DNA from: a virus
DNA: 53,834 nucleotides
Virus record (IMG/VR): IMGVR_UViG_3300030104_001062
Location: 1-53,834 of that record
Reading direction: 5' to 3' (one strand)
Below the pieces are notes generated by a model. The model worked only from the letters and a program-made list of their open reading frames with translations. It did not search any database and had not been told where the DNA came from. Made by a program: the position numbers and the translations under genes. Of this stretch, positions 31,367-38,679 are shown in pieces (position 1 is the first letter of the stretch; each line of letters begins with the position of its first letter).

Positions 31367-31395
31367 AAACTAAACCATAACAAAAACTATGTCAA
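31367..31395 (-). promoter_or_regulatory. Candidate leftward early promoter
   Basis: On the minus strand TTGACA (31395-31390) is followed after 17 bases by TAGTTT (31372-31367). The -35 is perfect and the -10 weak (3 of 6). It would start RNA close to ATG 31359 of the primase gene. It is the only promoter-like sequence upstream of the compact leftward operon that I could find. Confidence 0.45.
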
Positions 31396-31432
31396 ATAAT
31401 TTTTTTTTATTTTTTTGTTGACAGATAGTTTT
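31383..31432. repeat. Inverted repeat carrying both early -35 elements
   Basis: The arms AAAACTATGTCAA (31383-31395) and TTGACAGATAGTTTT (31418-31432) are inverted copies apart from a 2-base insertion. They enclose 22 bases made almost only of A and T. Each arm carries a TTGACA facing outward. The AT tract could also aid melting as an origin. Confidence 0.65.
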
Positions 31433-31445
31433 CTATGCTTATTAT
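31418..31445 (+). promoter_or_regulatory. Rightward early promoter
   Basis: Perfect TTGACA (31418-31423), 16-base spacer, TATTAT (31440-31445). The transcript should begin near 31452 and enter the gene starting at 31489. Sigma70-type, which suits a phage without its own RNA polymerase. Confidence 0.7.
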
Positions 31446-31488
31446 CATAGTTCAGAGGTTCAACCCACTAGTAAAGAAAGGAAGGTCT

Positions 31489-32127
31489 ATGACCCAATAT
31501 TATAGTAATACTAAAGAAAACTATGTAAATATAAATGATATGCATCATCAACACGTTTGGTATGCATTTAAAAAACTTTGTGATCGATTAGAAGAATTAG
31601 AAATGTCTAAAAAGATATGGAGTAATTCTTTTGATTCGACAACAACAGAGTATATTCGTAAAGATGTATACAAAATGTTGTTCGATAAGTGTGAACGACA
31701 AGATAATACAATCAAACATCTTTTAAATGAGAATAGCAAACTAAAGAAAAAATTTGATAATGCCATATCCGAATTGTTTGAGAATAGCAAACTAAAGAGA
31801 AATGCTAATTCCAAATCTGTATTTAAATTAGAGAAAGAAGTGTCTAGATTAAAAGAACAGATCAATCGTATGTATAAAGATCAAAAACATAAAGGACATC
31901 GATATGCATTTTCTAATATTCCCAATGATGATAATGGTCAATCGCTTGTAAAGGCAATGAGGTTTTATTTAAATAAAGAAACTTATTCTATGCGAGTAAG
32001 AGGACAATACTTAGATAAGTCTAAATTAGAGAGAGGAGAAAGTTGGAAAACGTATGATGATGGTCAACCATTAAGTAAGTCTAAATGTATCCGTCTGTAT
32101 ATAGATAAGAAAAGGGAGAGTGCATAA
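31489..32127 (+). CDS. Hypothetical early coiled-coil protein (212 aa)
   Basis: First gene of the rightward early cluster. ATG 31489 is used because upstream in-frame starts overlap the promoter and GGAAGG lies just before this ATG. A central coiled coil (about 75-145) includes a duplicated ENSKLKK/ENSKLKR segment whose 19-bp DNA copies begin at 31729 and 31780. The C-terminus is basic (SMRVRGQYLDKSKLERGESW). No family is recognised; early position suggests host takeover or regulation, by inference only. Confidence 0.6.
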   Translation: MTQYYSNTKENYVNINDMHHQHVWYAFKKLCDRLEELEMSKKIWSNSFDSTTTEYIRKDVYKMLFDKCERQDNTIKHLLNENSKLKKKFDNAISELFENSKLKRNANSKSVFKLEKEVSRLKEQINRMYKDQKHKGHRYAFSNIPNDDNGQSLVKAMRFYLNKETYSMRVRGQYLDKSKLERGESWKTYDDGQPLSKSKCIRLYIDKKRESA

Positions 32128-32339
32128 TGGCTATGAATAAAAAAGAAAAAGAATTTATGAATAAGCTAGTTGAAGAGAATGGTAATTTTAGAAAGTTACT
32201 TAAATATACTGTTAAAGATTTAACAGATTTAGCATGGGATTATGATCGTATGTCTACGAGTGGTCAACAAACATATGATCGTTTATCTAGAATGTATGCA
32301 ATGAAATTTGAGGAGAAACGTAATGCCATATCTCAATAA
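32127..32339 (+). CDS. Hypothetical early protein (70 aa)
   Basis: Start overlaps the previous stop (TAATG), so the two genes are coupled. Helical and charged (MNKKEKEFMNKLVEENGNF, DLTDLAWDYDRM). No motif is recognised. Overlaps the next gene by 17 bases. Confidence 0.55.
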   Translation: MAMNKKEKEFMNKLVEENGNFRKLLKYTVKDLTDLAWDYDRMSTSGQQTYDRLSRMYAMKFEEKRNAISQ

Positions 32340-32535
32340 TCATTTTCATATATATGATCAGCACAAAGATTTGTCATTTCAAATCGTGGGTAAAACTAAC
32401 TTCATTAAATGGTTAAATGAATGTACGACTGAACGTTTAGTTGACTATGGTAGATATAAATACTTTACAACTTATTCAGAATTGAGTAAGTTCTTAAAAA
32501 GTAAAGGAAAGGATATAGATAATGAGAGTGTATAG
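32323..32535 (+). CDS. Hypothetical early protein (70 aa)
   Basis: ATG 32323 was chosen over 32308 because AGGAG stands 7 bases upstream. Aromatic and His-rich start (MPYLNNHFHIYDQHKDL) with a Lys-rich helix at the end. It overlaps the methyltransferase start by 14 bases, so it may be coupled to it. No function can be assigned. Confidence 0.55.
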   Translation: MPYLNNHFHIYDQHKDLSFQIVGKTNFIKWLNECTTERLVDYGRYKYFTTYSELSKFLKSKGKDIDNESV

Positions 32536-33667
32536 TGCATTTAATGGCTTTAGTGGTGCTAATGTTGCTCTAGATAGAGCAGATAGAAAAGTAACTACAT
32601 ACTTAGCTAGTGAGATAGATAAATGGTGCAATGCCGTTACTAGATACAACTACCCCAATACAAAATTTATTGGGGACATAACTAAACTTAATCCAAATAG
32701 TATAAAGGACATTGATCTGATGATCGGTGGATCGCCTTGTCAAGATGTATCCTTTAGTGGAAAAGGTAAAGGTTTAGTTGAAGGTGAACGATCTAATTTG
32801 TTCTTCGTATGGTTGGAACATCTCAAGACAATCAAACCAAAGTACTTCTTGTTGGAGAATGTCAAGATGAAAAAAGAATATCAAGATATGATTTCTGATG
32901 CTCTTGGTGTTCAGCCTATGATGATTCCGTCTAGTCTTGTAAGTGGACAAAAACGAGATCGTCTGTATTGGTTTAATTGGAAGTGTGACTTACCAAAGGA
33001 CAAAGGTATTTATCTACAAGATATAGTTGAAGATGGTGCAGTTGATAGAGATAAGTCTTTCTGTATAGATGCAAACTATTGGAAAGGTGGTAATCTTAAA
33101 TCATACTTCACAAAGAATAGACGACAGTTAGTATTTGACAATCATAGGTGTATCCAAGTCGGTGAAGCAGATATAAAAGGTTATGATGTGATCAAACGAG
33201 TGTATGCAAGAGAAGGTAAATCCCCAACTCTAACAACTATGCAAGGTGGACACAGAGAACCAAAGGTAATTTGTGGACAGATGGTAGGTCGTAAGATTAA
33301 TCCTAAAACCAATAAACGAGATGACTACAATCCTAACATTAAAACTAAACAACGTATTGAGTTGAAAGGTGATGGTAAAAGTGGTGCTTTGACAACTGTA
33401 CAGAAGGATAATCTTGTTGTTACTGATAAGTATTGGAGAGCATTAACACCTAAAGAGTGTGAACGTCTGATGACACTACCTGATGACTATACTATGTTTG
33501 GAGATTTTGAGGAAAACAACTATGCACATTACAAAGAATCTATTGGAGATGCCGATTGGTATAATGATATAAAGGACATATCCAAGACTCAACGATATCG
33601 TATGCTTGGTAATGGTTTTGTTGTTGATGTAATCGCTCACATATTAAGGAGTATGCCTAATGGCTAG
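32522..33667 (+). CDS. C5-cytosine DNA methyltransferase (381 aa)
   Basis: Transfers methyl from SAM to carbon 5 of cytosine. Motif I FNGFSGANVALDRA, motif IV GGSPCQDVSFSGKG with the catalytic Cys, motif VI LLENV, motif VIII SGQKRDRLYW and motif X YRMLGNGFVVDV are all present and in order. The region between VIII and X (including SPTLTTMQGGHREPK) should hold target recognition. No matching restriction enzyme is nearby, so the enzyme probably protects phage DNA from host restriction or marks its own genome. Overlaps neighbours on both sides. The target sequence cannot be read from the protein. Confidence 0.92.
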   Translation: MRVYSAFNGFSGANVALDRADRKVTTYLASEIDKWCNAVTRYNYPNTKFIGDITKLNPNSIKDIDLMIGGSPCQDVSFSGKGKGLVEGERSNLFFVWLEHLKTIKPKYFLLENVKMKKEYQDMISDALGVQPMMIPSSLVSGQKRDRLYWFNWKCDLPKDKGIYLQDIVEDGAVDRDKSFCIDANYWKGGNLKSYFTKNRRQLVFDNHRCIQVGEADIKGYDVIKRVYAREGKSPTLTTMQGGHREPKVICGQMVGRKINPKTNKRDDYNPNIKTKQRIELKGDGKSGALTTVQKDNLVVTDKYWRALTPKECERLMTLPDDYTMFGDFEENNYAHYKESIGDADWYNDIKDISKTQRYRMLGNGFVVDVIAHILRSMPNG

Positions 33668-33863
33668 ACCTAAGAAATTTAAAGAAGATGTCAAGATGTA
33701 CAACATAGCATTGTCAGTTAATATGTTTAAAAAATTGTCAAATATATCTTTACAAGAAACACAAAATAGTTTAGAACATATAAGTATAGCCGATCTAATA
33801 AGATCAAGTATTGAAGTGTTTGTCGAATGTTATGAAAAAGAGAATGTCAATGGGAAAAGTTAA
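33660..33863 (+). CDS. Ribbon-helix-helix-like small DNA-binding candidate (67 aa)
   Basis: Starts in an 8-base overlap with the methyltransferase end. A basic N-terminus (MARPKKFKEDVK) leads to a strand (MYNIALSV) and two helices (NMFKKLSNISLQETQN; ISIADLIRSSIEVFVECYEKE), the order expected of a ribbon-helix-helix repressor such as Arc or MetJ. It could regulate early or late promoters. The pattern is suggestive only. Confidence 0.5.
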   Translation: MARPKKFKEDVKMYNIALSVNMFKKLSNISLQETQNSLEHISIADLIRSSIEVFVECYEKENVNGKS

Positions 33864-34062
33864 AAGTATGTGTATGGATATGGAAGATAAGTATGTTGAT
33901 CTATCTATAGATAATGTCAGCGATTGTCACCATATAGAAGAGTATATAAAAAAAATGTCAGCCCATTCTCATCTGATTGATTGGAGAGATGATTGGAAAG
34001 AATGGTCACACGAAATTTTGACCGAAAATTGGAATGAGTATTGGTCGAAATACAATCCCTAA
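33850..34062 (+). CDS. Hypothetical acidic Trp-rich protein (70 aa)
   Basis: ATG 33850 has AAAGAG 7 bases upstream; ATG 33844 is an alternative, and starts further upstream overlap the previous gene more. Acidic, with many Trp residues in the C-terminal half (IDWRDDWKEWSHEILTENW). No family is recognised. The stop codon lies in the left arm of an inverted repeat. Confidence 0.5.
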   Translation: MGKVKSMCMDMEDKYVDLSIDNVSDCHHIEEYIKKMSAHSHLIDWRDDWKEWSHEILTENWNEYWSKYNP

Positions 34063-34092
34063 AAGAATTTTTTTATCCTTTCGCTTTTAGGG
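34057..34092 (+). other. Inverted repeat after the 70-aa gene
   Basis: CCCTAAAAG (34057-34065) and CTTTTAGGG (34084-34092) pair perfectly over 9 bp around an 18-base loop. The left arm contains the stop codon. No T tract follows directly, so it may stabilise mRNA or act with the terminator just downstream. Confidence 0.5.
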
Positions 34093-34100
34093 CTTGACTT

Positions 34101-34136
34101 AATAGGACTATGGAGTAATCTGTAGTCCTATTTTTT
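34101..34136 (+). terminator. Intrinsic terminator in early cluster
   Basis: Perfect 10-bp stem AATAGGACTA / TAGTCCTATT (34101-34110 with 34123-34132), 12-base loop, then a T tract. It separates the methyltransferase group from the following genes. Confidence 0.8.
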
Positions 34137-34152
34137 ATGAAAGGACAAATAG

Positions 34153-34641
34153 ATGAAACATTGGAGAACTAAAGAAGAAATGGGTGAGGGCTTTCAGTTT
34201 AATGAGAAAGACCACATGGAAAATGAATATAATTCCCTAGAAAAATTTGAAGAACATGAAAAAAATTTAATGCGAACTTTTTATCTAATTAGAGATGTTT
34301 GGACTTATAAACAATTAATTCAGTTGCGAAACGTCTTAGATGACATTATTGAAGATAAAGAAAATTCAGACGAACAGCCATTGTGTACTACTCACACATT
34401 TTATAAATGGAATGATAAAGATACTTTTGATAGTGTTCTTGAATTAGCTCAAGATGGTATTGATACAATTCACACAGAGGTTGCATTTTATAAAGATAAA
34501 GTTGTTTTAACAAAAACCGATTGTGAAATATTTGATGTCAAAAAACACATTAAAGAATTATCTTATAAAGATTTTGTTTTAATGATGAATAGGGGAAAAG
34601 AAATTGAAACAAAGTTTTATGATTGGGAGTTTGACAAATGA
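34153..34641 (+). CDS. Hypothetical early/middle protein (162 aa)
   Basis: Preceded by GAAAGGACAAATAG. Acidic N-terminal half with many Glu, then a helix (YKQLIQLRNVLDDIIEDKE) and an alpha/beta C-terminus (VVLTKTDCEIFDVKKHIKEL). No motif is recognised. The stop overlaps the zinc-ribbon gene start (ATGA). It lies just behind a terminator, so expression probably depends on read-through or an unseen promoter. Confidence 0.55.
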   Translation: MKHWRTKEEMGEGFQFNEKDHMENEYNSLEKFEEHEKNLMRTFYLIRDVWTYKQLIQLRNVLDDIIEDKENSDEQPLCTTHTFYKWNDKDTFDSVLELAQDGIDTIHTEVAFYKDKVVLTKTDCEIFDVKKHIKELSYKDFVLMMNRGKEIETKFYDWEFDK

Positions 34642-34808
34642 GTATCAAGATAGTAGACGTAACAGAAGAAGATACAATCACTTGCAATGTTTGTAACTGT
34701 ACCTTTGACACGAATGAAATTACTACTGATGATTTTTATTTTGCTTGGGACAATATAGTTTCAACAGATTGTTGTCGCAGTTGTAGTAAAAAGGAAATTG
34801 GCAAATGA
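34638..34808 (+). CDS. Small zinc-ribbon protein (56 aa)
   Basis: Four-base ATGA overlap with the previous gene. Cysteines are arranged C-x2-C-x-C near residue 16 (TCNVCNCTF) and CC-x2-C near 45 (DCCRSCSKK), a pattern for one zinc ion between two knuckles. Small zinc ribbons in phage early regions often bind host RNA polymerase or other proteins; that role is inferred. Its tight fit between neighbours with overlaps on both sides supports it as a real gene. Confidence 0.6.
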   Translation: MSIKIVDVTEEDTITCNVCNCTFDTNEITTDDFYFAWDNIVSTDCCRSCSKKEIGK

Positions 34809-35065
34809 TGAAACAATGGAGTAAACGAGATTGGGCATTGGCTAATATTCATTTTGAAAATATTGTCAGCCCAAAGCTAAATAATGTCAGCCCAAAGCTA
34901 AATAATGTCAGCCCAAAGCTTGATAGCCACAGAGCTACTGATCCTCTGTTGACCGAACTTCAAGAAATTATTTTTGATTTATATGATGAAGAAAATTTTG
35001 AATATGCCAGAAGATTAGAAGATTTTGAAATTTCTTTTATGAAATTTTTACAAAATAATATTTGA
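34805..35065 (+). CDS. Small protein with NVSPKL tandem repeats (86 aa)
   Basis: ATG 34805 overlaps the upstream stop; ATG 34808 follows at once. The N-terminal third contains three copies of (N)VSPKL encoded by perfect or near-perfect 21-bp repeats, then an acidic helical part (LTELQEIIFDLYDEENFEYARR). The repeat region is Pro/Ser-rich and probably flexible. No family is recognised. Confidence 0.55.
   Translation: MMKQWSKRDWALANIHFENIVSPKLNNVSPKLNNVSPKLDSHRATDPLLTELQEIIFDLYDEENFEYARRLEDFEISFMKFLQNNI
34862..34924 (+). repeat. Three tandem 21-bp repeats
   Basis: Units of the form A(A/T)TGTCAGCCCAAAGCTAAAT start at 34862, 34883 and 34904. The third diverges at its end. In frame they encode NVSPKLN. 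Each unit contains an AAGCT core. Confidence 0.85.
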
Positions 35066-35089
35066 CTATCTATACAGTTGTGATATTTA
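35062..35089 (+). promoter_or_regulatory. Weak promoter candidate
   Basis: TTGACT (35062-35067), 16-base spacer, TATTTA (35084-35089), placed in the 60-base gap before the next gene. The -10 match is poor. Confidence 0.3.
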
Positions 35090-35125
35090 AGTGTTGTCGT
35101 AATTTTAAAATGAAAGGAAAAAATA

Positions 35126-35380
35126 ATGACAGTCAAAATAATCTCAGATGAGTTGATCACTCAGATAAACGATCAATTAAAAACTGTAGTTACTGATGCA
35201 GTTAAAGAAGAAATTCGCAATATCGATTGGAGTGGTGAATTAGATATATATAGTCTTGTTCAAGATGAACTTCAGAATATGGATATTATGGATTATATGG
35301 ATACATCTAGCCTTGACGATAAGATCGGTGATCAGTTGGAAAGTATGCTCTCAGAATTAACAATTCAGAGGGGGCATTAA
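35126..35380 (+). CDS. Hypothetical acidic protein (84 aa)
   Basis: Clear ribosome site AAAGGA before the ATG. Strongly acidic and helical (QINDQLKTVVTDAVKEEIR, QDELQNMDIMDYMDTSSLDDK). No motif is recognised. Highly acidic small early proteins can mimic DNA, but nothing here proves that. Confidence 0.55.
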   Translation: MTVKIISDELITQINDQLKTVVTDAVKEEIRNIDWSGELDIYSLVQDELQNMDIMDYMDTSSLDDKIGDQLESMLSELTIQRGH

Positions 35381-35382
35381 TT

Positions 35383-35592
35383 ATGAATATGGTTGATATA
35401 ATTCATACTACAACTGAATTAGAAACTTTAGAAAATGATCTAACTGTTGAAGTTTCAAAATTTATTCGTGAACGTCTACAAAATTCATCACTAGATTTTA
35501 TTGGTGGTAATGGTCTAGATATTTTAATTGATACTAATATTGATATTGAAAGTATTGTATCCAAAGCTTTAATTGAAAGGAAAAATAAATGA
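35383..35592 (+). CDS. Hypothetical acidic protein (69 aa)
   Basis: Lies 2 bases after the previous gene and overlaps the DUF932 gene by 4 bases. Helical, acidic (TTTELETLENDLTVEVSKFI, then TNIDIESIVSKALIERKNK). Like its neighbour, it ends with segments reminiscent of paired short helices; the two may be distant duplicates. Function unknown. Confidence 0.55.
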   Translation: MNMVDIIHTTTELETLENDLTVEVSKFIRERLQNSSLDFIGGNGLDILIDTNIDIESIVSKALIERKNK

Positions 35593-36686
35593 GTGATCAA
35601 ATGGATATTGAAGAACTATTAACTGAAAGTGACAATGCAAATGTTACTCCATTTAAAACTAACATTCCTCCAAAGTGGTCTGTATCATTAGATGATAATG
35701 GCTATAAACAAATGCCAAATGGTGTTGAGTTTATTCATGATGATGTAAGGAATAATCGATTGTTTGAAGATGTAGGAACAGTTGAACCTACTCCATTATT
35801 TGTAGATAAACCATTTGGTGTAGGTATGGGAACAATGCAAAAAGTTGATAATTATAGAGCGTTGATTTCAACTCATACGGGTGATGTTTTAAACTGTCGA
35901 CCAATTTCAGATACTTATAAACTTGTTAATCACTCAGAATTGTTTGAAAAGCAGGGAAACCATTTGAAGGAAAATAGTGATTTGCCTTTAGATAATGTTG
36001 AAGTAATTGATCGAGTATTTGAGAATGGAAGACGTGCAACTAGAACTATTCATTTTAATGATTTAAAGATGGACGTTGGACAAAATGATCTAGTTAAGTG
36101 TCGTTTAGATGTTTTTAATTCTGTCGATATGTCGTGGGCATTCCAAGTCTTTAGTGGTGCTTATCGATCACTATGTCAAAACACTCAAGTATTTGGGGGT
36201 GAAAAAGCATACCAACAAAAGCATTTACATAGTAAGAATTTAGATGTTGATGCTTTGATGAACAATGCTCAGACTAGCTTGTCATCATGGAATAATAATA
36301 AAGAGCAGATGAAAGAGTGGAAAGTGTCACCAATTTCAGATAAACAATTTGCGACATTCTTAGCAAATACTCTATGTCAAGTTGAACGTGGTGTAGGAAG
36401 TCGTTTGGTTGCTGATAGTCAATATAAGGTCAATAATAAGTTATTGAATTTTATGACACAAATATTCCAAAAAGAAAGTCAAGATTGTGGTGCAAATATG
36501 TGGAGTGCTTATAATGCTTTGACTTATTGGTCTACTCATACTGATGCAGATTATGTCGATGTCGATGGTAAAAGTCAGCGATTGGGTGAAACAAAGTCAA
36601 AGCATACTGTGCAATTACAACGTCAAGATAAAGTCAGAAAGCTATTGTCATCTGATGCTTGGAATGAGTTGTCATTAGTTGCATAA
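35589..36686 (+). CDS. DUF932 (phage/plasmid-like) protein (365 aa)
   Basis: Fits the family of phage and plasmid proteins (DUF932; TIGR03299-type) by its order: a variable N-terminus, then NYRALISTHTGDVLNCRPISDTYKLVNHSELF, a charged beta region, CRLDVFNSVDMSWAFQVFSGAYRSLC, and a helical C-terminus with AYNALTYWSTH. Some relatives are encoded beside replication or anti-restriction genes, but the function is unknown. The start is coupled to the previous gene (ATGA) and the stop to a tiny membrane peptide (TAATG). Confidence 0.75.
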   Translation: MSDQMDIEELLTESDNANVTPFKTNIPPKWSVSLDDNGYKQMPNGVEFIHDDVRNNRLFEDVGTVEPTPLFVDKPFGVGMGTMQKVDNYRALISTHTGDVLNCRPISDTYKLVNHSELFEKQGNHLKENSDLPLDNVEVIDRVFENGRRATRTIHFNDLKMDVGQNDLVKCRLDVFNSVDMSWAFQVFSGAYRSLCQNTQVFGGEKAYQQKHLHSKNLDVDALMNNAQTSLSSWNNNKEQMKEWKVSPISDKQFATFLANTLCQVERGVGSRLVADSQYKVNNKLLNFMTQIFQKESQDCGANMWSAYNALTYWSTHTDADYVDVDGKSQRLGETKSKHTVQLQRQDKVRKLLSSDAWNELSLVA

Positions 36687-36766
36687 TGGGAGAACTTATT
36701 TCAGCAATCTATAAATTAGTTATTATATTTGTTTTAATAATTATTGTATTTCAAATATTTGGATAA
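36686..36766 (+). CDS. Tiny membrane peptide (26 aa)
   Basis: ATG overlaps the DUF932 stop (TAATG). Residues 8-25 are wholly hydrophobic (KLVIIFVLIIIVFQIF), a single membrane helix. Such coupled small membrane peptides are plausible in phages, for example for superinfection exclusion, but no homologue is recognised and it may be chance. Confidence 0.4.
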   Translation: MGELISAIYKLVIIFVLIIIVFQIFG

Positions 36767-36789
36767 TTAATTAAAAATAAAATAAATTT

Positions 36790-36820
36790 AAAGGGGGTGT
36801 ATTTACATTCCCTTTTTTTT
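36790..36820 (+). terminator. Intrinsic terminator
   Basis: A 12-bp RNA stem from 36790-36801 with 36804-36815 (AAAGGG, two G-U pairs, TGTA) followed by a T tract to 36820. Strong terminator after the DUF932 group. Confidence 0.8.
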
Positions 36821-36831
36821 GTGTCTATACT
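36802..36831 (+). promoter_or_regulatory. Promoter overlapping the terminator
   Basis: TTTACA (36802-36807), 18-base spacer, TATACT (36826-36831). The -35 sits in the right arm of the terminator. It would restart transcription for the gene at 36865. Confidence 0.5.
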
Positions 36832-36864
36832 CCTGAACAAAATAAAAACTGAAAGGTAAATAAA

Positions 36865-37125
36865 ATGAAATTTATTAAAGTACACAATATAAACAATCGA
36901 CCCAATCAATTCTTGATTGTTACTCCAGATGCTCATTACTTTCAATCATATGAAAGTTTAATCGCTATGAGAGATAATGAAGGAAAAGTATATTTAGATA
37001 AAAACTATTGGGATTATTCTAGTACAACTGGAAAGTATAGAAATATATTTTTAAATGAAAATAAACATTTGACACAGAAAAAGATTAATTCTAATGTCTA
37101 TTCATTGGTTGATTTAAACAACTAA
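36865..37125 (+). CDS. Hypothetical protein (86 aa)
   Basis: Ribosome site GAAAGGTAAATAAA before the ATG. Mixed alpha/beta (MKFIKVHNINNRPNQFLIV, YESLIAMRDNEGKVYLDKNYW), tyrosine- and asparagine-rich. First gene after a promoter-like sequence. No motif is recognised. Confidence 0.55.
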   Translation: MKFIKVHNINNRPNQFLIVTPDAHYFQSYESLIAMRDNEGKVYLDKNYWDYSSTTGKYRNIFLNENKHLTQKKINSNVYSLVDLNN

Positions 37126-37160
37126 TATTTAATTTTAACAACTTGCAAAGGATAAAACAG

Positions 37161-37406
37161 ATGCAAAAATTAATTAAAGTAAATAAATCTAATTTAGAAA
37201 ATATGATTGTTAATGAATATAAAGATTTAAATTTAATAGCTTTACAAGTAAGATCTTTAAAAATGCAAATTGAAAGTTTAAATGAATTAATTGATGCTAT
37301 GGGTATTTGTGCTTATGGAACATCTCATAAACAAGTTAAATTAAAAGATTATCAATTAGATGATAATGATAATTTTATTATTAAGACTGAAGAAAGAACA
37401 TATTAA
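37161..37406 (+). CDS. Hypothetical helical protein (81 aa)
   Basis: ATG 37161 with AAAGGA 8 bases upstream; an upstream TTG in frame at 37143 is less likely. Helical N-terminal two thirds with leucine spacing (LIALQVRSLKMQIESLNELI), perhaps a coiled coil, then a polar tail. Function unknown. Confidence 0.55.
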   Translation: MQKLIKVNKSNLENMIVNEYKDLNLIALQVRSLKMQIESLNELIDAMGICAYGTSHKQVKLKDYQLDDNDNFIIKTEERTY

Positions 37407-37407
37407 G

Positions 37408-37632
37408 ATGGCTAATGTGTTAAATTTTTCTCATGATATTGTCCATTGTTCTGCTTGTAATAAAGGTCAAGAAAGATATTTGCACGTTCAAGAGAATGGT
37501 AAATATTTATGTGTTGCTTGTTGGTTAAAAGATGCTAACAATTTTAGAGCAAATCAAAGAGTTCAAGAACAAGTTGAACAATACCAAATAGATTATAGAA
37601 CTAAATATTTTAGTGGTTCTTCAAAGTATTAA
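37408..37632 (+). CDS. Small zinc-finger protein (74 aa)
   Basis: ATG 37408 lies one base after the previous stop; earlier in-frame starts overlap that gene. Two CxxC knuckles (HCSACNKG and YLCVACW) separated by 20 or so residues make a zinc ribbon, followed by a Gln/Arg-rich helix. It may contact host transcription or nucleic acid. Last gene before a strong terminator. Confidence 0.6.
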   Translation: MANVLNFSHDIVHCSACNKGQERYLHVQENGKYLCVACWLKDANNFRANQRVQEQVEQYQIDYRTKYFSGSSKY

Positions 37633-37657
37633 TATAATATAATTTCCTCCCAAACTG

Positions 37658-37687
37658 CCCTCAGATTAATCTCTGAGGGTTTTTTTT
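37658..37687 (+). terminator. Intrinsic terminator of the rightward early cluster
   Basis: Perfect 8-bp stem CCCTCAGA / TCTGAGGG (37658-37665 with 37672-37679), 6-base loop, then eight Ts. It ends the early unit before the late promoter region. Confidence 0.88.
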
Positions 37688-37777: not shown

Positions 37778-38040
37778 TAATTAATTGTATTGTTAATAAA
37801 AAATGTCGGTGCAAGTTTGCACATACATACATGCAAGAAAAACTATTAATACAAGTTTAGCTTGTTGCAAATCTTTATATTATCTAAATGTCTGTCATTT
37901 ATGGTTATTAATAATGGTATTTGCCTATATGTACAAAGGGTCACTGGGGGTACTCTAGCACTTGCTAGCAATCTAGGGATATTTTTTATATTTTAGGGTT
38001 ATATGTATGGAAAACTTTGCAACTCACTGAGTAGGCTCAT
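37778..38040. other. Gene-free AT-rich stretch with small palindromes
   Basis: No convincing reading frame. It holds short inverted repeats: GTGCAA/TTGCAC (37809-37822), TTGCA/TGCAA overlapping it to about 37836, and CTAGC/GCTAG (37955-37968). It could contain operators or an origin. I saw no tRNA-like cloverleaf. Confidence 0.4.
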
Positions 38041-38071
38041 AAAAAAAGCCCCATATGCAACGCATTGGGGC
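38041..38071 (-). terminator. Leftward intrinsic terminator
   Basis: On the minus strand a stem GCCCCA/TGGGGC plus ATGC/GCAT (10 bp, one bulge) with a 3-base loop is followed by seven Ts (38047-38041). Only a leftward transcript would use it; no leftward protein gene precedes it. Confidence 0.75.
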
Positions 38072-38109
38072 AACTTATTGGGTATACTATATATATCCTC
38101 GGCAGGTTC
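38041..38109 (-). ncRNA. Candidate leftward small RNA (about 69 nt)
   Basis: A minus-strand promoter (TTGACG, 17-base spacer, TATAAT) ends at 38116 and an intrinsic terminator ends at 38041, leaving a transcript of about 69 nt starting near 38109. It contains no usable reading frame. A small CCU/AGG hairpin lies at the 5' end, a UA-rich single-stranded middle follows, and the terminator hairpin forms the 3' end, the classic layout of a bacterial sRNA. I could not find an obvious target in the window. The evidence is promoter plus terminator only. Confidence 0.55.
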
Positions 38110-38115
38110 ATCTGC

Positions 38116-38144
38116 ATTATACCGTCTGAAATCAATTTCGTCAA
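38116..38144 (-). promoter_or_regulatory. Leftward sRNA promoter
   Basis: Minus strand: TTGACG (38144-38139), 17-base spacer, perfect TATAAT (38121-38116). It is the best -10 box seen in the window. Confidence 0.65.
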
Positions 38145-38150
38145 CCCCCC

Positions 38151-38179
38151 TTGACAAATTTTTTTTAAATTAGTATTAT
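38151..38179 (+). promoter_or_regulatory. Late rightward promoter
   Basis: Perfect TTGACA (38151-38156), 17-base spacer rich in T and A, TATTAT (38174-38179); a second TATTAT lies at 38187-38192. It probably drives the terminase-to-tail operon. Its -35 is only 6 bases (six Cs) from the leftward promoter's -35, so the two compete for RNA polymerase. Confidence 0.75.
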
Positions 38180-38277
38180 AAGTATGTATTATAGGTGCAA
38201 GATGTCACATTGGCACACGATATAGCTTAGTTTGCATCCAGTTCGTAGACTTACGCACCGTAATAACAGAGATTACA

Positions 38278-38679
38278 ATGAATTTATTACCAGAAAAACG
38301 CAAATCTACTAAGATTTCTGAAAAAGAAGAGCTTTTCTTACAAAACTTGTTTGAGAATGGCGGCCAAGTAGTCGCTGCAGCTGAAAATGCTGGGTACACG
38401 AAGGGTTCTGCAGGATATTTGCGAAGCAAATTAGCCGATGAGATCATAACACGGTCAAAGAACCTACTCGCTAGTGCTTCTGTAAAAGCTACCAACAGGT
38501 TAATTAGTATGATCGACACCCCACAAGTCGAAAGAGGGGATGATGTGCGTTTAAAGGCTGCTGAATCGCTGTTAAACAGAGTTGGGCTGGGTAGAGAGGA
38601 AACACATAACCATAATGTACAGGCATTACATGGAGTAGTATTGCTCCCACCTAAAAAAGGAATAGAAGTAAGTGGCTAA
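38278..38679 (+). CDS. terS: Small terminase subunit (133 aa)
   Basis: Recognises phage DNA for packaging. The N-terminal helix-turn-helix region (EEKFLQN-like EELFLQNLFENGGQVVAAAENAGYTKGSAGYL) fits the DNA-binding domain of small terminases. The middle helices (SVKATNRLISMID) and a segment with RLKAAESLLNRVGL are usual for oligomerising TerS proteins. Directly followed by the large subunit with an 8-base overlap. First gene of the late operon, about 90 bases behind the promoter. The ribosome site is weak. Confidence 0.75.
   Translation: MNLLPEKRKSTKISEKEELFLQNLFENGGQVVAAAENAGYTKGSAGYLRSKLADEIITRSKNLLASASVKATNRLISMIDTPQVERGDDVRLKAAESLLNRVGLGREETHNHNVQALHGVVLLPPKKGIEVSG

Follow-up and report, generated by a model that had tools for sequence, protein, structure and literature searches.

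Sequence evidence for a conserved, short leftward transcription unit divergent from the late promoter in a sub-lineage of marine phages

Introduction

What might a leftward promoter and a leftward terminator be doing in a gap between two rightward phage genes, with no leftward protein gene between them? The question arises in a viral DNA of 53,834 nucleotides (IMG/VR record IMGVR_UViG_3300030104_001062, positions 1 to 53,834; this whole stretch is called the window below), where a preliminary description had proposed a small regulatory RNA made before or during the late switch. Among isolates, the closest relatives of the window's terminase come from HMO-2011-type phages, which are described as ocean-dominant and broadly distributed (PMC9038755); its large subunit is ≈48 to 55% identical to those of HMO-2011, the CRP roseophages, and the HTVC pelagiphages. 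Our literature searches found no prior description of such a leftward unit, and in the papers covered by our term searches neither promoters nor non-coding RNAs nor intergenic control elements are mentioned.

A leftward cluster (31,383–21,411) encodes a DNA polymerase A, a DnaB-like helicase, a Toprim-domain protein, an endonuclease I, and a ribonucleotide reductase, and rightward genes, a DNA methyltransferase among them, fill 31,435 to 37,632. A second divergent region (31,383–31,445), with an 11/12 rightward promoter at 31,418, separates the leftward replication cluster from the rightward small genes. The next rightward gene after the gap, terS, opens a set that we take as the late genes, among them terminase and portal-position genes and other large ones.

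Results

A leftward promoter and terminator in the window

The elements of the leftward unit are as follows.

38,139–38,144, minus strand: −35 box of the leftward promoter, TTGACG (direct reading and promoter scan)
38,116–38,121, minus strand: −10 box of the leftward promoter, TATAAT (direct reading and promoter scan)
38,102–38,115, minus strand: dyad GCAG-ATGAAC-CTGC, directly past the −10 box and over the predicted start; probable operator
38,041–38,109, minus strand: predicted leftward RNA of 69 nt, its start inferred, with no complete reading frame
38,041–38,071, minus strand: intrinsic terminator, a 24-nt hairpin and seven Ts

Direct reading of the minus strand confirmed the promoter, with a 17-nt spacer and a scan score of 11 of 12 consensus positions, and the GC-rich hairpin GCCCCAATGCGTTGCATATGGGGC (38,071–38,048) that runs into TTTTTTT (38,047–38,041). 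Transcription from σ70 promoters starts ≈7 nt past the −10 box, and placing the start accordingly at 38,109 yields a transcript of 69 nt, the length that the preliminary description had expected, with no complete reading frame. The fold of this predicted RNA is the terminator stem (minimum free energy −17.7 kcal/mol, z −1.63). Both flanking genes point rightward, and no leftward protein gene lies in the gap, as had been claimed: one ends at 37,632 and is followed by a rightward terminator (37,657–37,680), and the next starts at 38,278. A leader of a leftward protein gene was thus rejected, there being no such gene downstream, as was a cis-antisense RNA, since no annotated or predicted mRNA in the gene list overlaps 38,041–38,109. 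A single promoter match is nonetheless weak evidence, and the window alone cannot decide: sites matching at 9/12 positions occur at shuffle level (62 versus 64.2 expected), and those at ≥11/12 are only threefold enriched (nine versus ≈3 in shuffles, maximum seven).

Conservation of the unit among relatives

The preliminary description had staked its RNA gene on the conservation of promoter and hairpin, and we looked for both in relatives fetched by terS (48) or by the large-subunit gene terL (80). As anchor for the promoter we used a profile of a 73-bp AT-rich block downstream of the leftward unit (described below), so that sequences were not picked by the promoter itself; the profile was trained on 29 promoter-collected sequences, and most of the 130 loci that it found lay outside that set. 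Among the 78 distinct block-anchored sequences with ≥250 nt upstream, 77 carry a leftward promoter of ≥10/12 upstream of the block, compared with eight of 78 mononucleotide-shuffled copies. This test reports one site per sequence, which in a few cases is another nearby site that scores equally well or better; the leftward unit can still be seen in those relatives in other parts of the analysis. The TTGAC of the −35 box is kept in nearly all block-anchored relatives, and the −10 box reads TACAAT in most close relatives, compared with TATAAT in the window. Conservation in sequences anchored in this way makes the evidence for the promoter strong, beyond that of a single match in the window.

Terminators tell a related story on one strand only. 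A leftward terminator is recognizable less than 200 nt from the −10 box in 23 of 49 distinct relatives, 58 to 144 nt past it, versus none of 49 on the opposite strand and zero to two of 49 in shuffles; the remaining 26 have no recognizable terminator within that distance, and the short length of the transcript is kept in about half of the lineages. Roughly ten of these terminators are non-homologous to one another (those of L034, L063, L069, L070, L087, L094, L111, L125, L141, and the window's clade), and the RNA body is likewise non-homologous between lineages, with recurrence limited to the promoter, the dyad over the start, and a few G+C-rich bases of CCGGG type just past it. A second hairpin often seen just downstream (CCGGGG..CCCC) was discarded, because its energy does not exceed that of the swap control (−5.96 versus −5.79 kcal/mol). 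Terminators confined to one strand yet unrelated in sequence indicate that evolution has preserved, or restored several times, a short leftward transcript of changing sequence. We are therefore confident, from these sequence comparisons, that the leftward transcription unit is real and under selection.

Four cultured pelagiphages, HTVC033P, HTVC103P, HTVC104P, and HTVC115P, have the leftward promoter upstream of terS, with a recognizable terminator in HTVC115P only. In HTVC115P (L141; MN698247.1) the promoter, TTGACA-16-TATAAT, matches at 12/12 positions with 16-nt spacing, an unrelated leftward terminator follows ≈86 nt on, and the record annotates no RNA there.

A covarying dyad over the start site

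Covariation among relatives, which the preliminary description had suggested as a check, is found at the dyad. Its arms vary (GGGT/ACCC, CGGAG/CTCCG, GGGC/GCCC, GAGG/CCTC, and others) and stay complementary, with a mean arm of 3.31 nt over 35 distinct versions versus 1.72 nt when arms are swapped between relatives (maximum mean arm 2.51 nt in 1000 trials). The symmetry overlaps the promoter, as would be expected of the operator of a dimeric repressor. In HTVC103P a similar dyad (CAGG-AGTA-CCTG) sits in the promoter spacer, and in L032 and L121, read by eye, one overlaps the −10 box; such shifts fit an operator rather than a transcribed hairpin. Given a start ≈7 nt past the −10 box, the left arm would moreover remain untranscribed, and we rejected a hairpin at the 5′-end of the RNA as the main reading on both grounds. 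The dyad is thus best read as a probable protein-binding operator whose specificity has drifted. As a genome-wide repeated site it was rejected: there is one exact copy, and the near matches (19 versus 1.9 expected) lie almost entirely inside genes, which makes coding bias the likelier cause of their excess.

A divergent late promoter with a structured leader

On the other side of the leftward promoter lie the elements of late expression.

38,151–38,179, plus strand: divergent late promoter TTGACA-17-TATTAT (promoter scan)
38,187–38,265, plus strand: structured leader of the late (terS) mRNA, with 23 nested pairs
38,278–38,679, plus strand: terS, small terminase subunit gene, first of the late set (gene list)

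We named terS by its position before the large terminase gene, which resembles the place of annotated small subunits in HTVC phages; its product has no PHROG match. The two promoters stand back to back, with 6 bp between their −35 boxes in the window, so that the suspected tie of the leftward unit to late control is upheld at the level of layout.

The leader is itself conserved as structure. In 13 relatives the helix keeps 96% of its 23 pairs, and eight pairs are changed on both sides, compared with 3.3 expected in column shuffles, none of 500 of which is as high; sliding the 3′ side by one to three columns lowers pairing to 29 to 42%. Among 27 leaders, many of them far more divergent, the long-range 5′–3′ helix scores 7.57 versus 5.45 in swaps (maximum 5.96 in 200). 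The leader has no Rfam family match in the window or 19 relatives. Its long helix is also present where another small gene replaces terS downstream, so that the leader goes with the promoter and not with terS, and our guess is a role in antitermination or in mRNA stability for the long late operon.

Back-to-back promoters with a dyad at one of them invite the reading of an early–late switch, in which the leftward promoter and its operator compete or interfere with the late promoter, a phage regulator flips the two, and the RNA is a by-product kept harmless by its terminator. The pairing of both promoters in almost every block-anchored relative and the dyad over the leftward start site agree with it. 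The distance between the promoters, however, varies from 5 to 62 bp, which speaks against a fixed geometry of competition, and the conserved block beyond the RNA is left unexplained; we regard a switch of this kind as possible. Spurious divergent transcription driven by promoter symmetry was rejected, since the promoters are separate from each other, at a distance that differs between relatives.

The RNA sequence and its candidate targets

The preliminary description had read the unit as a regulatory RNA. What stands of this is a selected leftward transcription unit; an RNA that acts through its sequence is not supported, since the body varies between lineages and the target prediction proposed against phage mRNAs came out empty, pairing of the leftward RNA with phage mRNA starts being no better than that of shuffled RNA. 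No Rfam 15 family is matched at gathering score by the window or 19 relatives, all matches being sub-threshold. A trans-acting RNA of 69 nt that pairs with phage or host mRNAs would nonetheless fit the promoter–terminator layout and the size of the phage small RNAs λ OOP and P22 sar, and the terminator hairpin is well conserved inside the window's own clade (exact in 14 viral stretches). Set against these points are the persistence of promoter and shortness while the body changes, the failure of any phage mRNA start to pair better than with shuffled RNA, and the want of a cis overlap; we consider such an RNA unlikely, as it would be expected to conserve a seed or body together with a target. 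Because the unit is conserved while its RNA sequence changes freely, what counts is probably that the unit is transcribed, more than which sequence the RNA has.

An AT-rich block beyond the terminator

Leftward transcription would end before the stretch that is best conserved among all non-coding sequence aligned here.

37,938–38,010, minus strand: AT-rich block of 73 bp with an inverted repeat, origin-like (function inferred); found in 130 loci

The block is kept even where TerS identity falls to 47%. Of 77 relatives, 31 have exact direct repeats of ≥9 nt in the interval from promoter to block; by a shuffle test of the longest such repeat, 31 of 77 have one that at most one of 20 shuffles matches (about 4–8 expected). 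An AT-rich block with repeats adjoins the leftward unit in relatives; the window itself retains no clear iterons or direct repeats in this interval. GC skew along the window tracks gene orientation and shows no switch at 38 kb. We read the block as a putative replication-origin-like site. A loose pattern search of 16 related isolate genomes, HMO-2011 and CRP isolates among them, did not recover the block; in most of these genomes terS sits inside a gene cluster, and the leftward unit would therefore belong to a sub-lineage.

A position upstream of terS also recalls packaging sites. λ cos sits upstream of the λ small-subunit gene, and block and repeats could by analogy form a cos or pac site bound by TerS, leftward transcription either affecting packaging or being incidental. 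In L043, however, the block and the divergent promoters lie ≈2.5 kb upstream of terS, which speaks against a site bound by TerS and in favor of a control or origin region that is independent of it. Several lineages, moreover, have another small gene between block and terS; a packaging site is accordingly improbable. Least credible of all is a chance coincidence of promoter and hairpin in an AT-rich gap, for which the shuffle-level frequency of 9/12 sites could be cited, and which the strand-specific conservation of promoters and terminators renders very remote.

A separate element was noted in this region of other phages. The 17-mer AACTGTTCTTAGTATAG occurs in 69 viral stretches, often in the same intergenic region as the block, and is absent from the window; its carriers include L160, L192, L206, L161, and L168, sometimes with tandem variants just before a start codon, and it looks like the promoters used by T7-like single-subunit RNA polymerases. 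L206 has an additional copy of the AACTGTT module ≈7 kb upstream of the block, at about the position expected for the region at 31,383–31,445.

Discussion

A proposed mechanism

From the promoter, the terminator, the conservation of both, the covarying dyad, and the conserved block, all of them features of the sequence, we infer transcription of the RNA, the role of the dyad as an operator and of the block as an origin, and the direction in which the unit would act. We tentatively favor, ahead of the divergent switch and then of the trans-acting RNA, a short transcription unit that is repressible, is linked to an origin or a switch, and would work like λ pO/OOP without being homologous to it. 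A strong σ70-type promoter that diverges from the late promoter would give a short leftward transcript, terminated short of the AT-rich block; a phage regulator would probably bind the start-site dyad and so switch the promoter. Short, terminated transcription beside the block might then modulate melting or the loading of an initiator at the origin-like site, and termination would stop RNA polymerase from entering the block or the convergent early genes.

In favor of this origin- or switch-linked unit we count the promoter in 77 of 78 relatives, the one-strand, non-homologous terminators, the dyad that covaries and shifts, the retention of the block at 47% TerS identity, the direct repeats in 31 of 77 relatives, the phage's own DNA polymerase, helicase, and Toprim-domain protein, and the precedent of λ pO. 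Against it we count the 26 of 49 relatives with no recognizable terminator within 200 nt, the want of clear iterons in the window, the GC skew with no switch at 38 kb, and the HMO-2011 and CRP isolates, with terS inside a gene cluster and no block by pattern search. More speculative, and doubtful in our view, is a wider reading of the intergenic region, in this abundant lineage of marine phages, as an RNA-centered control hub not described before, in which the repressible, terminated leftward transcript governs the adjacent replication origin and the new structured leader of the late mRNA may act in antitermination or processivity for the late operon.

Whatever its mechanism, a conserved divergent control region, with a dyad and an origin-like block next to a short predicted RNA and a structured late leader, offers precise coordinates at which to look for the start of replication and the late switch in a widespread group of marine phages. 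Since HTVC115P is cultured and has both the leftward promoter and a terminator, the unit can be tested in culture.

Comparison with known phage systems

Three phage systems invite comparison. P22 sar RNA, of 68/69 nt (PMC12197685), is a phage RNA of equal size; it differs in pairing with ant mRNA, whereas the leftward RNA overlaps no mRNA and our search for phage targets gave none. The layout of the promoters recalls that of φ29 A2c/A3, where a leftward promoter likewise stands back to back with a rightward late promoter near a protein-binding dyad (putative here). In φ29, protein p4 turns one of these divergent promoters off and the other on, and the leftward one drives an early protein operon, in contrast to the short non-coding RNA predicted here.

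The closest functional parallel, by analogy, would be λ pO. Judged by its sequence, the leftward unit is of the OOP/pO type in having a short predicted RNA with its own promoter and intrinsic terminator. It differs in that OOP (77 nt) is antisense to the lysogeny gene cII, whereas no gene lies opposite 38,041–38,109 and no sequence kinship was found; the leftward promoter here is, furthermore, divergent from a late promoter, and the origin here is a putative one. OOP RNA is not a primer of λ replication, yet the pO promoter matters in its control (reviewed in PMC12197685), and replication is impaired in λ with no functional pO, apparently through stronger pR transcription (PMC3985674). Both systems place a strong promoter and a short, terminated RNA (predicted here) near a replication control region (a putative one here), and in λ the promoter matters for replication beyond the RNA that it makes.
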